The notes beneath the pieces are model-generated. The model saw only the letters and a list, made by a program, of their open reading frames with translations, was not told where the DNA came from and ran no database searches. A program made the translations under genes and the position numbers. Of a stretch of DNA of 64,000 nucleotides, positions 49,841-53,725 are shown one piece after another (the stretch's first letter is position 1; each line of letters begins with the position of its first letter). This DNA comes from Halorarum halophilum (GTDB taxonomy: Archaea > Halobacteriota > Halobacteria > Halobacteriales > Haloferacaceae), in assembly GCF_013401515.1 (NCBI RefSeq), contig NZ_CP058529.1:620001-684000 (forward strand), given 5' to 3'.

Positions 49841-50248
49841 TCAACACTCCTCGGCCATCGCGGTACGGGTCGCGTCGGGGTTCACCGTCGCCACCCGACA
49901 GTCGTCCGCACACGACTCGCAGTCGACGTACTCCACCTCGCTCTCGACCCCGCGGAGGAGGTCGACGAGTCGCTCGCCCTCCTCCGTCAGCCTGTATCGC
50001 GCCATCGGCGGCGACGCGGGTTCGTACTCCCTGACGAGGAGGCCCCGGCATCGAAGCTCGCGGAGCCGTCGCGCGAGGCTCTTCTCCGGGGCCCCGCCGA
50101 CGCGCTCGCGGAGGTCGCCGAACCCGACCGGCCCGTCCGCGAGGCCGCGAAGGACGTGCAGCGCCCACTTCCCGGAGAGCGTTCCGTGGAGGTCGTCCAG
50201 CCGACGCTGCCACGTCGTTCCGCCGCTGTCGTCGCTCATCGTGGGCAT
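49841..50248 (-). CDS. HxlR-family transcription regulator with C-terminal cysteine cluster
   Basis: This is a 135-residue winged-helix regulator. The HxlR core has SGKWALHVLRGLADGPVGF and the recognition region (KSLARRLRELRCRGLLVRE). The C-terminus YVDCESCADDCR plus a final Cys give five cysteines beyond the HTH, suited to redox or metal sensing. The ATG at 50248 is leaderless, with GTTATCC about 22 bases upstream; 50239 is an alternative start. The divergent gene encodes a 17-cysteine peptide and the shared intergenic region holds two matching palindromes. Confidence 0.82.
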   Translation of the reverse strand: MPTMSDDSGGTTWQRRLDDLHGTLSGKWALHVLRGLADGPVGFGDLRERVGGAPEKSLARRLRELRCRGLLVREYEPASPPMARYRLTEEGERLVDLLRGVESEVEYVDCESCADDCRVATVNPDATRTAMAEEC

Positions 50249-50279
50249 CCAGACCCCGCCCCGGGATAACGGCAGCGCC

Positions 50280-50299
50280 GACTGTCGGTCGCGACAGTC
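50280..50299. promoter_or_regulatory. HxlR operator candidate 1
   Basis: GACTGTCG-GTCG-CGACAGTC is a perfect 8-base inverted repeat; it contains ACTGTC-N6-GACAGT at 50281-50298. It lies between the divergent HxlR gene and the Cys-rich gene, just upstream of the HxlR TATA-like sequence. Confidence 0.65.
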
Positions 50300-50334
50300 G
50301 GAGTACCGGCGATGGAAACGCACGGCACTTGCGG

Positions 50335-50352
50335 GCTGTCGGCGGTGACAGT
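50335..50352. promoter_or_regulatory. HxlR operator candidate 2
   Basis: GCTGTC-N6-GACAGT, the same arms and spacing as the first site and 54 bases from it (about five helical turns). It lies 43 bases before the ATG of the Cys-rich gene, so one regulator could bind both and control both genes. Confidence 0.65.
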
Positions 50353-50395
50353 CGGCATCGGTGGGGAAGGTGATGTGGCGCCTCGGTGAGCCCGC

Positions 50396-50632
50396 ATGTC
50401 CGAGACCGAGACGTGTGACTGTGGTATCGACCCGACGGAGACCGTCGACGTTCCGGCCGCCGTCCTCGCCGCGCTCGCGTGCGGGTGTGGCTGTGGGTGT
50501 GCGGGGAATCGAGGTGGCTGCCGGTGTTCGGAGAACCGGCGTGACTGTGGGTGTTCGGAAAGCCAGTCCGATTGCGGGTGTTCGGGAACTCGGTGCGACT
50601 GCCGACCGGTTCAGCAGTCGTGTTGTTGCTGA
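50396..50632 (+). CDS. Cys-rich metallothionein-like peptide
   Basis: This is a 78-residue protein with 17 cysteines (22 percent), arranged in C-x-C pairs: TCDCG, then ACGCGCGCAG, RCSE, DCGCSE, DCGCSG, RCDC and a final SCCC. A short Pro/Val helix lies between the first and second clusters. The C-x-C density is like metallothioneins and metal-cluster peptides; disulfide-rich is an alternative. It is divergent from the HxlR regulator with shared operators, so expression is probably induced by metal or oxidant. No near homologue known to me. Confidence 0.75.
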   Translation: MSETETCDCGIDPTETVDVPAAVLAALACGCGCGCAGNRGGCRCSENRRDCGCSESQSDCGCSGTRCDCRPVQQSCCC

Positions 50633-50660: not shown

Positions 50661-51479
50661 TCACTCGGCGGGTGACGCGTCGTCCCCGTCCGAGTCGTCG
50701 TCCGGTTCGTCCGCGTCGCGGCGTCCCGACCCGTCGTCCGCGGCACCGTCCCCGTCCGGCGACTCGGCCTTCCCCAGCTGTCGCTTGATGGACTCGAGTT
50801 CCGCCTCGACGTCGACTTCCGGGTTCTCCACGACAGCGTTCCCGGCTTTCTCGTCCCCTCCCTCGCTGTCCTCGCCCTCACCGTTTCCGTCCGCGGTAGA
50901 GTCCTGCTCCTCCCCGTCCGTCACGTCGATGGTCACGGCACCGTCGGCCGAGGCGTCCTCGGATCGCTCGCGGTCGCGCTCCCGGGCGACCGTCTCCCGG
51001 GACGCCGCGATGCGCTCCTCGATCTGCTCTGAGAGACTGCGTGCCTCCTCGATGACGTCCCGCGACTCCTCGTCCTCGGGGAGGTCGGCCTCCGCGAGCG
51101 CGGTCCTGAGCTGCGAGAGGGCGTCGCTCGCGTCCGAGGCCGCGCGCTCGCCCGCGCCGGAGAGGATCGGCGACAGCCGGGACCGGTCCCTCGCTGACAC
51201 CCGGCCGCCGTCCCGATCCGTGCCGGCGGTGAGTTCGAGGAACCGGCGGAACAGTTCGAGCGCCTCGATCGTCGCCTGGAGCGTGGCGATGACCGTCGGG
51301 ATGGTGTAGTCGTTCGTGAAGCGGAGGAGGTCGCCGACGCTGGGGGGACGGGGAGGGCCCCGTCGCCGCCGTCGTCCCCGCCCGTCGTCGAGTTCCGACC
51401 GTAGCTCCGAGAGGGTGGACTCCAGTTCCGAGAGGAGGGTCTCGAGTTCCTCGTCGTCACGGGGTGACCGGTCGCTCAT
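50661..51479 (-). CDS. helical haloarchaeal protein with acidic tail (DUF7547-like)
   Basis: This is a 272-residue protein: a Glu/Ser/Leu helical start, a basic Arg/Gly stretch (about 34-45), a conserved core GDLLRFTNDYTIPTVIATL, then long coiled helices (about 100-165) and a disordered acidic Ser/Asp/Glu-rich tail. I loosely recall it as DUF7547. No enzymatic motif. It lies 28 bases from the Cys-rich gene end (convergent). Cytosolic protein of unknown role. Confidence 0.72.
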   Translation of the reverse strand: MSDRSPRDDEELETLLSELESTLSELRSELDDGRGRRRRRGPPRPPSVGDLLRFTNDYTIPTVIATLQATIEALELFRRFLELTAGTDRDGGRVSARDRSRLSPILSGAGERAASDASDALSQLRTALAEADLPEDEESRDVIEEARSLSEQIEERIAASRETVARERDRERSEDASADGAVTIDVTDGEEQDSTADGNGEGEDSEGGDEKAGNAVVENPEVDVEAELESIKRQLGKAESPDGDGAADDGSGRRDADEPDDDSDGDDASPAE

Positions 51480-51600
51480 ACCCGGGGGTTGTGACGCTCG
51501 GGCGAAAAACCCTCCCCTGCACCTGAAACAGCGGAACGGGCGATTCGCCGTCGGTCGCCTCGCACGGACAGCGTGGCCGCAGTACGAGTATCCGAGTCCG

Positions 51601-52707
51601 TCACTCGGGCGCGACACGGCCGTACTGGACCGGCCACTCGACCGCGTCGTCCTCGCCGAGTTCGTGAGCGGCGTGGAGCGGCCAGTACGGCGAGCGGAGG
51701 AACTCGCGGGCCATCAGGACTGCGTCGGCGCGGTCGTTGCGCACGATCTCGTCTGCCTGCTCCGGTGAGGTGATGCCCCCGACGGTTCCGACGGCGATGT
51801 CGGCGTTCTCGTCCACCACGTGCTCGCGGATGGTCTCCGCGTAGGGGAGCTGGTAGCCTGGCCCGGCGTGGGGGACCTCCTGGGCCGGCGAGATGCCGCC
51901 CGAACTCACGTCGACGAGGTCGGCGCCGGCGTCGGCCAGGAGCGGGGCCAGCCTGGCGGACTGTTCGACGTCCCACGACTCCTCGTCGTCGATCCAGTCC
52001 GTCGCGGAGATACGGACGAAGACCGGTTTGTCGTCGGGCCACACGGACCGCACCGCCCCCGTAACCTCCCGGAGGAGACGCGTCCGGTTCTCGAACGAGC
52101 CGCCGTACTCGTCCGTGCGGTCGTTCGCGACCGGGGAGAGGAACTCGTGGAGGAGGTAGCCGTGCGCGGCGTGGACCTCCGCGACCTCGAACCCGGCCTC
52201 GAGCGCCCGGCCGGCGGCGTCCGCGAAGGCGGCGACGGTCTCCTCGATCCCGTCGCGGTCGAGGCGGCGTGTCGGGTGTTCGTCCCCGTCGCGAGGATAC
52301 GGCTTCGCGCTCGGAGCGATCGTCTCCCAGCCGCCCGAGTCGAGCGGGACTGGGTCGCCGCCCTCCCAGGGGCGGTGGGTCGACGCCTTCCGGCCGGCGT
52401 GGGCGAGCTGGATCGCGGGCACCGACCCCTGCGAGCGGACGAAGTCCGCGACCGGCGCGAGCGCGTCGGCGTGCTCGTCCGACCAGATGCCGAGGTCGTA
52501 GGGCGTGATGCGCCCCTCGGGCGTCACGGCCGTCGCCTCCGCCATCACCAGCCCGGCCCCCCCGACCGCGCGCGAGCCGAGGTGGACGAGGTGCCAGTCC
52601 GTCGCCAGCCCGTCGGGCGAGGAGTACTGGCACATCGGCGACACCATCACCCGGTTCGGGAGTTCCGTCCTGCGCAGGGTCAACGGGGAGAACAGCGTCT
52701 CGACCAT
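51601..52707 (-). CDS. Old Yellow Enzyme-type NADH:flavin oxidoreductase
   Basis: This is a 368-residue FMN ene-reductase of the YqjM class. The redox Cys near the start is in VSPMCQYSS. His and Tyr/Arg substrate and FMN sites are in HAAHGYLLHEFLSP and NDRTDEYGGS; the FMN phosphate region is near GTVGGITSPEQ. It reduces activated double bonds, such as those of toxic enones. A TATTTAAG-like box lies about 28 bases before the ATG (52705-52707). It is divergent from the 50-residue gene with the palindromic operator. Confidence 0.9.
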   Translation of the reverse strand: MVETLFSPLTLRRTELPNRVMVSPMCQYSSPDGLATDWHLVHLGSRAVGGAGLVMAEATAVTPEGRITPYDLGIWSDEHADALAPVADFVRSQGSVPAIQLAHAGRKASTHRPWEGGDPVPLDSGGWETIAPSAKPYPRDGDEHPTRRLDRDGIEETVAAFADAAGRALEAGFEVAEVHAAHGYLLHEFLSPVANDRTDEYGGSFENRTRLLREVTGAVRSVWPDDKPVFVRISATDWIDDEESWDVEQSARLAPLLADAGADLVDVSSGGISPAQEVPHAGPGYQLPYAETIREHVVDENADIAVGTVGGITSPEQADEIVRNDRADAVLMAREFLRSPYWPLHAAHELGEDDAVEWPVQYGRVAPE

Positions 52708-52800
52708 ACGCGTCGTAACGGGGGATGGCTTAAATGGTCGATGTCGGGCGACGGCCTTGCCCCGATCGACGACCCGTGAGCGATCTTTCGGCGGACCAAA

Positions 52801-52826
52801 ACCTATAAACGATTAGGTCGACCTAA
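52801..52826. promoter_or_regulatory. TATA box plus DtxR-like palindromic operator
   Basis: CCTATAAAC at 52802-52810 is the TATA box, and TTAGGTCGACCTAA at 52813-52826 is a perfect 14-base palindrome between it and the predicted start (about 52832). TTAGG...CCTAA matches the half-site pattern of DtxR-family metal repressors (SirR/IdeR type). Iron- or manganese-dependent repression of the downstream 50-residue gene is the inferred effect. Confidence 0.6.
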
Positions 52827-52834
52827 CTTCGGTA

Positions 52835-52987
52835 ATGGCAGTCGCCGACGGCGAGAACGCGGACGAGGGGGAACGAAGAGTGGCCGTTGCGGCCCTCCGC
52901 AGTTCCCCGGGGAGAACGGTGTTCACCGAGGACGGGAACTGCGACGGCTGGATATCGACCGACCTGACGCTCGACGTCGAACGCTGA
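52835..52987 (+). CDS. 50-residue protein under the DtxR-like operator (DUF7556-like)
   Basis: The protein has an acidic start, then VAVAALRSSPGRTVFTEDGN and CDGWISTDLTLDVER. The TVFTEDGN..GWISTD core resembles short haloarchaeal proteins that I recall as DUF7556. The short frame is supported by its promoter arrangement: TATA box, palindrome, then an ATG a few bases after the predicted start. Function unknown; control by metal would suit a small metal-response protein. Confidence 0.6.
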   Translation: MAVADGENADEGERRVAVAALRSSPGRTVFTEDGNCDGWISTDLTLDVER

Positions 52988-53158
52988 AGTCCCGGCGGAA
53001 CGGATCCACTCTCGTCTACCTGTCGGTCCTGATCGAACGACTTCTCCGACCAGCTCCCGGTTCTCGATACCCACCGGTACTCGGTCGAGTGCGGAAAGAA
53101 CGCGGAGTCGGAGGCGATCCGTTCCCGTTCGAACCGGGCGGACCGCGAGGAATGGACC

Positions 53159-53725
53159 CTACTCGGTCGTCACGGGCGCGTCCATCGCCTCGGGGAAGAC
53201 GAGCGTGTCGTCCTCGAGGTAGTGCTCGACGTGGTGGGCGTCCTCCTCGACTTGGACGAGGTTCTCGCGGAGGATCTCGGCGGTCGCCGGGTCGCCGAGG
53301 TTCTCGGCGAGTTCGATGTGCTCGCGGAGCGTCTCGATGATGTCGCCGTACATCTCCATGTCGTTGGCGAGCGACGTGCGGATGTCGTACACGTCCTCGT
53401 CCTCGGCCTCGACGGGGGACGCCTCGGCGAGCGTCGTCATGTTCGCGTGCGGGACGCCGCCGAGAGCCTGCGCCCGCTCGGCGAGCTCGTCGGCGAACAG
53501 TTCCGCGTGTTCGGCCGCCTCGTCGAGGAACAGGTGGAGGTCGCGGAACTCCGCTCCCTCGACGTTCCAGTGGTGTTTCTTCAGCTGGTGGTAGAGGACG
53601 TACGTCGCCGCCAGGTCCGTGTTGAGGGCGTCGACGATCTGCTCGGCCTTCTCCGCGTCCATGCGGAGCGCCTCGCTCCCTTCGACCGTCCCCTGGGTCT
53701 GGCGAACGTGCTTCTGGGTGCTCAT
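53159..53725 (-). CDS. dpsA: DNA-protecting ferritin DpsA
   Basis: This is a 188-residue Dps-type dodecamer subunit that oxidises and stores iron and shields DNA from peroxide. The intersubunit ferroxidase signature HHWNVEGAEFRDLHLFLDE is at about 51-69, with further Glu/His in the helical bundle (EHAELFADELAERA). The length fits haloarchaeal DpsA. A TATA-like GGTTTAAGTG at about 53749-53758 predicts a leaderless start. It is close to the DtxR-like operator on its left flank (170 bases after the convergent 50-residue gene), which suits iron-stress grouping. Confidence 0.93.
   Translation of the reverse strand: MSTQKHVRQTQGTVEGSEALRMDAEKAEQIVDALNTDLAATYVLYHQLKKHHWNVEGAEFRDLHLFLDEAAEHAELFADELAERAQALGGVPHANMTTLAEASPVEAEDEDVYDIRTSLANDMEMYGDIIETLREHIELAENLGDPATAEILRENLVQVEEDAHHVEHYLEDDTLVFPEAMDAPVTTE

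Follow-up and report, generated by a model that had tools for sequence, protein, structure and literature searches.

The window, that is the whole 64,000-nucleotide stretch of Halorarum halophilum DNA that was analysed, carries a divergent gene pair made up of an HxlR-family regulator with a cysteine tail (P0001) and a cysteine-rich micropeptide (P0002), with two matched palindromes between them. The pair is a real conserved unit, a new combination of known parts for which no description was found. The regulator, the Cys-rich peptide and the paired palindromes are kept together in several haloarchaeal families, and because of this conservation the earlier note's reading of a sensor with a thiol- or metal-binding effector has good support at the level of anatomy; the lack of such a pairing in other genomes had been named there as what would refute it. 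The pair is proposed to form a self-regulated two-gene stress module in which the regulator would control its own gene and that of a chelating Cys-rich micropeptide upon sensing a metal or metalloid (probability about 0.5). That the signal is a soft metal or metalloid of any kind is fairly probable, and that it is specifically As(III)/Sb(III) stands just short of an even chance. The interpretation overall is partly supported, and the arsenic link, which comes through sister regulators, is an addition to the earlier note.

Regulator, operators and promoters

The regulator P0001 (132 aa) is encoded on the minus strand at 49841..50239, with an alternative ATG at 50248, and was characterised using its translation, Pfam, AlphaFold and Foldseek. 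It scored 56.5 bits against Pfam HxlR, above the curated cut-off of 20.8, and by Pfam it belongs to HxlR and not to HTH_5, which places it outside ArsR/HTH_5. This match and the two ORF translations confirmed an HxlR regulator with a CESCADDC cluster (residues 107-114 of the translated ORF) divergent from a 78-residue peptide with 17 Cys, as had been claimed. The AlphaFold model (pLDDT 90, pTM 0.77) has a winged helix at residues 9-101 followed by a C-terminal beta-hairpin and helix carrying C107, C110, C114 and C132. This predicted tail, residues 103-132 (EYVDCESCADDC...C), is encoded at 49844..49933 on the minus strand. No metal site is claimed from the model, because AlphaFold is reported to be unable to distinguish metal-binding Cys clusters from others (PMC11241148).

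The top solved matches of the model in Foldseek were YodB/HypR/QsrR/HxlR (5hs8, 4a5n, 4hqe, 7bzd), with an E value of 5e-7 and TM scores of ~0.6 (query) and 0.7-0.8 (target). By profile, the nearest relative of solved structure was YodB, a redox/electrophile sensor, and the profile alignment stops at a YodB Cys facing the first tail Cys of P0001. These HxlR/DUF24 regulators of Bacillus and Staphylococcus have the Pfam domain, the fold and palindromic operators in common with P0001, and YodB likewise has a C-terminal Cys (PMC8063818). However, YodB, HypR and CatR sense through an N-terminal Cys (PMC6943732), which is Cys6 in YodB (PMC8063818), whereas an N-terminal Cys (before residue 20) was absent in 41 of 42 regulators compared, P0001 included. 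P0001 further differs in its longer, structured Cys-rich tail and in its partner, which is a Cys-rich micropeptide and not a reductase. Because the N-terminal Cys is absent, P0001 is placed by its sequence outside the YodB/HypR redox subgroup. The analogy with HypR drawn earlier thus holds for the fold and fails for the sensing residue, the conserved Cys being C-terminal.

A tree was built of the 42 regulators, and the regulator of the window fell in clade A (22 rows, support 97/94). In groups A-D, each of the 39 regulators has a tail with at least three Cys, and C64 is present in 37 of these 39, while all three group-O regulators were tail-less and had no C64. Within A1, residues C107, C114 and C132 are invariant. 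A Cys-rich partner, which the three tail-less relatives lack, always goes with a Cys-tailed regulator.

The two ACTGTC-N6-GACAGT-type palindromes noticed earlier were verified as ACTGTC-GGTCGC-GACAGT at 50281-50298 and GCTGTC-GGCGGT-GACAGT at 50335-50352, spaced 54 bp apart inside a 25-bp direct repeat that is 80% identical. Putative operator 1 (50277..50301; core CTGTC-N6-GACAG at 50282-50297) lies 42 nt from the regulator ATG, and it has the same place (40 nt) in L067 and L065, the pair's two closest relatives. Putative operator 2 (50331..50355; core 50336-50351) lies 44 nt from the peptide ATG, again as in L067 and L065, where the same CTGTC site occupies the same intergenic place and the spacing between the two sites is 19 bp against 54 in the window. 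A TATA-like TTATCCC of the regulator promoter (50263..50269, minus strand), assigned by consensus resemblance only, is located 30 nt before the ATG, and such boxes were found ~29-37 nt ahead of starts. One site directly upstream of each TATA-like box is an arrangement that would fit activation or repression alike.

These two sites are the only exact matches to RCTGTC-N6-GACAGY in the 64-kb window. The 4.28-Mb genome holds 4 copies of the core CTGTC-N6-GACAG, which is no excess over the 4 found for a control pattern; two of the four sit at this locus, 54 bp apart, and the other two are at G000:C1:1589454 and 3332711. The genome-wide operator search gave few sites per genome, and therefore no large regulon was seen. 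Taken one at a time, most loci gave no significant result in a shuffle test of single palindromes, and the case for the operators is made from the conservation of motif, position and clade.

One operator geometry (5+N6+5) is kept while the half-sites vary by clade. The operator beside the regulator promoter is present in nearly all clade-A loci and lies 40-43 nt from the start codon in most of them. Within clade A, CTGTC-N6-GACAG is confined to the window, L067 and L065, which form one subclade on a long stem of the tree, and the other loci have GTTTC-N6-GAAAC, some with one mismatch. The second site, near the peptide, is weaker; its distance from the ATG is 44 nt in CTGTC loci. In the other loci it is 40 nt, an offset at which the match averaged 5.3/10 versus a mean of 2.4 over all offsets. 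The predicted recognition helix (residues 52-64, EKSLARRLRELRC, codons at 50048..50086 on the minus strand), which also carries C64, reads PEK or SEK in the CTGTC loci and TAK or SAK in most others. Since the helix variant matches the half-site type, helix and operator appear from these sequences to have changed together, as a correlation on one branch. The tail-less L103 and L105, which are without a Cys-rich partner, have a perfect GGTACC-N6-GGTACC or GTACC-N6-GGTAC ~40 nt before the start.

The cysteine-rich micropeptide and the conserved pairing

The micropeptide P0002 (50396..50632, plus strand) has 78 aa with 17 Cys, ends in CCC-stop, and has same-slot equivalents in 20 other clade-A loci. 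It is metallothionein-like in being small and Cys-rich, with CxC/CC arrays and no aromatic residue (F, W, Y), and it has no His or Lys. Internal near-repeats (R/S)DCGCSE (tgtgggtgttcggaa), encoded at 50500-50610 of the window, suggest growth of the gene by internal duplication. No Pfam or NCBIfam model, metallothionein models included, was matched above cut-off by P0002 and the relatives scanned, and P0002 and four relatives gave no match to NF041416 and NF041415 (HcsL/HcsS). One relative gave a weak match to streptolysin S that did not reach the cut-off (E 0.005) and was rejected as low-complexity.

The micropeptides are 29-89 aa long, lengths which depend on the start codons we chose, and contain 8-18 Cys, many of them adjacent, with a CC-stop ending in 18 of 23 by manual count. 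They have little in common except Cys, the residues between being hardly conserved, and in some a short stretch precedes the Cys run (ETVDVPAAVLAALACGC in the window, ERIEVPVALLFALRTGCC in L067, ETTVEVPVGMVLAGGCC in L072). In all nine pairs of related peptides pN was below pS, clearly so in most (0.07/0.25, 0.13/0.46 and 0.20/0.64, for example), the difference being small for L068/L069 and L075/L076. From their recurrence in the same slot and from pN below pS, the micropeptides are best read as real, fast-evolving genes.

Ten further close homologues of the regulator (L004-L012, L024) were found among 170 genomes of the window's family, and a divergent Cys-rich ORF was present at nine of these ten loci. 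The exception was L024 (L024/L071); this clade-A regulator has a ~15-residue insertion in the DNA-binding domain before the recognition helix and keeps the operator while the Cys peptide is missing, and is perhaps part of a decaying pair. Further loci in other families came from a profile search across 392 genomes of the order, and many of these share the layout. The named loci are five, in Halobium salinum, Haloprofundus marisrubri, Halogeometricum pallidum, Halobaculum litoreum and Halogranum rubrum; a contig search with P0001 alone as query gave no match, although the profile search did find these five. In 197 genomes sampled across the phylum, matches at E <= 1e-25 were confined to the window's own family. 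The unit is patchy in the order-wide sample, and of three genomes of the genus this one alone has an orthologue.

A Cys-rich micropeptide ORF lies upstream and divergent in 21 of the 22 clade-A loci, which span four family-level groups of Halobacteriales, at a distance of ~115 nt in most. The count is 20 at a threshold of 17% Cys, and the peptide of L080 (11 Cys in 67 aa), slightly under the threshold, makes 21. The more distant group-D regulators L099 and L102 both have a divergent Cys-rich ORF as well, and the same search found none beside 18 regulators of groups B, C and O. Elsewhere in 507 kb, counting both strands, one other such ORF was found; Cys-rich ORFs in the divergent slot are far above chance. 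In Haloferacaceae the clade-A pair occurs in one chromosomal context, and genes for DUF7547, an FMN oxidoreductase and a Dps-like ferritin (window 50661-53725) adjoin the pair and recur around it in this family. Neither a recurring Cu/Zn/Cd transporter nor a recurring modification enzyme was noticed among the neighbours of clade A.

Several known systems resemble the pair in part. In SmtB-SmtA and other bacterial repressor-metallothionein pairs, a winged-helix regulator is divergent from a small Cys-rich protein. The layout is that of P0001-P0002, but SmtB is a bacterial protein of the ArsR/SmtB family with other sensor sites, while P0001 is an HxlR protein. HcsL/HcsS, which are found in arsenic islands, are like the micropeptides haloarchaeal proteins with CC-stop endings; the micropeptides differ in having far more Cys for their length and in matching neither model. 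No modelled family of metallothioneins or halo-CC-star proteins includes the unit, which may nonetheless function in a similar way. The C(P)XCG zinc-finger micro-proteins of Haloferax volcanii, with two C(P)XCG motifs and four Cys (PMC11241148), are also very small haloarchaeal proteins with Cys motifs, whereas in the micropeptides 8-18 Cys are arranged as runs of CC and CxC; P0002 has no C(P)XCG.

Sister regulators and arsenic

The regulators of group B were found near arsD and arsA in 4/4 loci, with ArsD, ArsA and ArsR-type HTH identified by Pfam. The gene order on the annotated plasmid pHLAC01 of Halorubrum lacusprofundi is arsB(ACR3)-arsR // arsD-arsA-hcsL-hcsS-M20 peptidase-Rdx-HxlR. Plasmids of Halosimplex aquaticum and Halorussus limi carry the same set of genes except for the peptidase, and after it, on the opposite strand, comes a gene for an arsenite methyltransferase. 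Loci L107 (NC_012030.1; 3110-8378), L108 and L110 are plasmid ars islands in which Rdx and the halo-CC-star genes hcsL/hcsS precede the HxlR gene. The HxlR proteins of the pHLAC01, Halosimplex aquaticum and Halorussus limi islands are like P0001 in domain, C64 and a three-Cys tail, and group-B tails have exactly three Cys, the number used by well-studied As(III) repressors (PMC11868830). An operator-like GTTTC-AGCGCT-GAAAG was located ~725 nt before the group-B HxlR gene and ahead of Rdx, so a similar site (GTTTC-N6-GAAAG) precedes a CC-stop protein as at the P0001 locus; the CC-stop ending is common to group-B Rdx proteins, HcsL/HcsS and most micropeptides. Unlike P0001, these regulators have an Rdx/SelW-like partner, are in tandem and not divergent, and are plasmid-borne with arsA/arsD.

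The group-C regulators lie opposite DUF2703 in 11/11 loci, three of which also have ArsP and ArsR genes. The divergent protein at these loci (L055/L060/L094-L104) is of the thioredoxin-fold DUF2703 family (PMC3091736), mostly with a CGCGC-like C terminus. In Rhodococcus, DUF2703 is an As(V)-induced ars gene beside arsO (PMC6514093), and in haloarchaea the arsADRC operon of Halobacterium NRC-1 is inducible by arsenite and antimonite (PMC3600143). The absence of DUF2703 in group-A genomes was dropped as evidence because control genomes gave no match either.

Arsenic is the strongest clue to the signal, although by guilt by association: because the sister regulators sit in ars clusters, the pair would most likely serve to detect and sequester a toxic, thiol-binding metalloid such as arsenite. 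Against this, tblastn with ArsA, ArsD, ArsP, ArsR and LMW phosphatase queries found no ars genes within 6 kb of any clade-A locus, and ACR3 and ArsD had no match in the genome of the window, which does have an ArsM-like methyltransferase gene. The literature searched held nothing on HxlR with haloarchaea and cysteine-rich proteins, mentioned HxlR with arsenic only in passing, and held nothing on halo-CC-star or on the HxlR gene of plasmid ars islands.

Proposed circuit and its rivals

The proposed circuit would work as follows. The regulator is expected to act as a dimer, and it would bind the two palindromes, one directly upstream of each divergent promoter, thereby holding its own gene and the micropeptide gene under control. 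The Cys tail (C107, C114, C132, perhaps with C64 beside the recognition helix) would bind a soft metal or metalloid with affinity for thiols, the likeliest being As(III) or Sb(III). Such binding would alter the DNA contact and switch the peptide on, whether by activation or by de-repression, and the peptide would then chelate the metalloid through its adjacent Cys and CC-stop tail. In its full form, as a new arsenite/antimonite sensor class on the HxlR fold with an archaeal metallothionein-like CC-tail peptide, widespread in haloarchaea and with operator specificity switched along with the recognition helix in one clade, the proposal is tentative and somewhat less than even in its odds.

Redox sensing and response to another soft metal are serious rivals. 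The pair could be a redox/electrophile switch in which a C-terminal Cys senses disulfide, quinone, hypochlorite or reactive sulfur stress, as Cys101 of YodB, and the peptide is a sacrificial thiol buffer. YodB, the top profile and fold match, counts for this and against a metalloid signal, as do the facing of its C-terminal Cys to the first tail Cys and the FMN oxidoreductase and Dps-like ferritin nearby in Haloferacaceae, which would suit oxidative stress; the Rdx and thioredoxin-fold DUF2703 partners of the sister groups point the same way. But the N-terminal sensing Cys of YodB, HypR and CatR is missing in nearly all the regulators, ars islands hold the sister regulators, and a peptide with runs of adjacent Cys fits the binding of metal(loid)s no worse than a buffering role. 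Redox sensing is considered rather unlikely. The same architecture could also belong to a metallothionein circuit of the classical type, with Cu(I), Zn, Cd, Hg or Ag and not As(III)/Sb(III) as its metal. The composition of P0002 (17/78 Cys, aromatic-free) is suited to this, and the missing ACR3 and ArsD and the lack of ars genes beside clade A favour it over arsenic. Arsenic, however, is the sole metal association found for the wider regulator family, and no recurring Cu/Zn/Cd transporter was seen beside clade A; a circuit for these other metals is considered unlikely.

It is very improbable that the Cys-rich ORF is no gene, or that it encodes the precursor of a modified peptide (RiPP) with no metal-related role, even though the sequence between the Cys is hardly conserved and no model was matched. 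The recurrence of the ORF in one slot against a single similar ORF elsewhere, pN below pS in every pair, TATA-like boxes before the starts and the lack of a recurring modification enzyme among the neighbours all speak against it.

The literature searched yielded neither a characterised archaeal metallothionein nor an HxlR protein that senses metals. If the proposed module is true, the regulator-peptide unit would provide both an archaeal metallothionein that can be characterised and a metal-sensing HxlR regulator, with sister loci in plasmid arsenic islands, and a function would be assigned to a set of so far nameless micropeptides. The clade-wise change of operator with recognition-helix residues would offer a clean, testable case of co-evolving DNA specificity.
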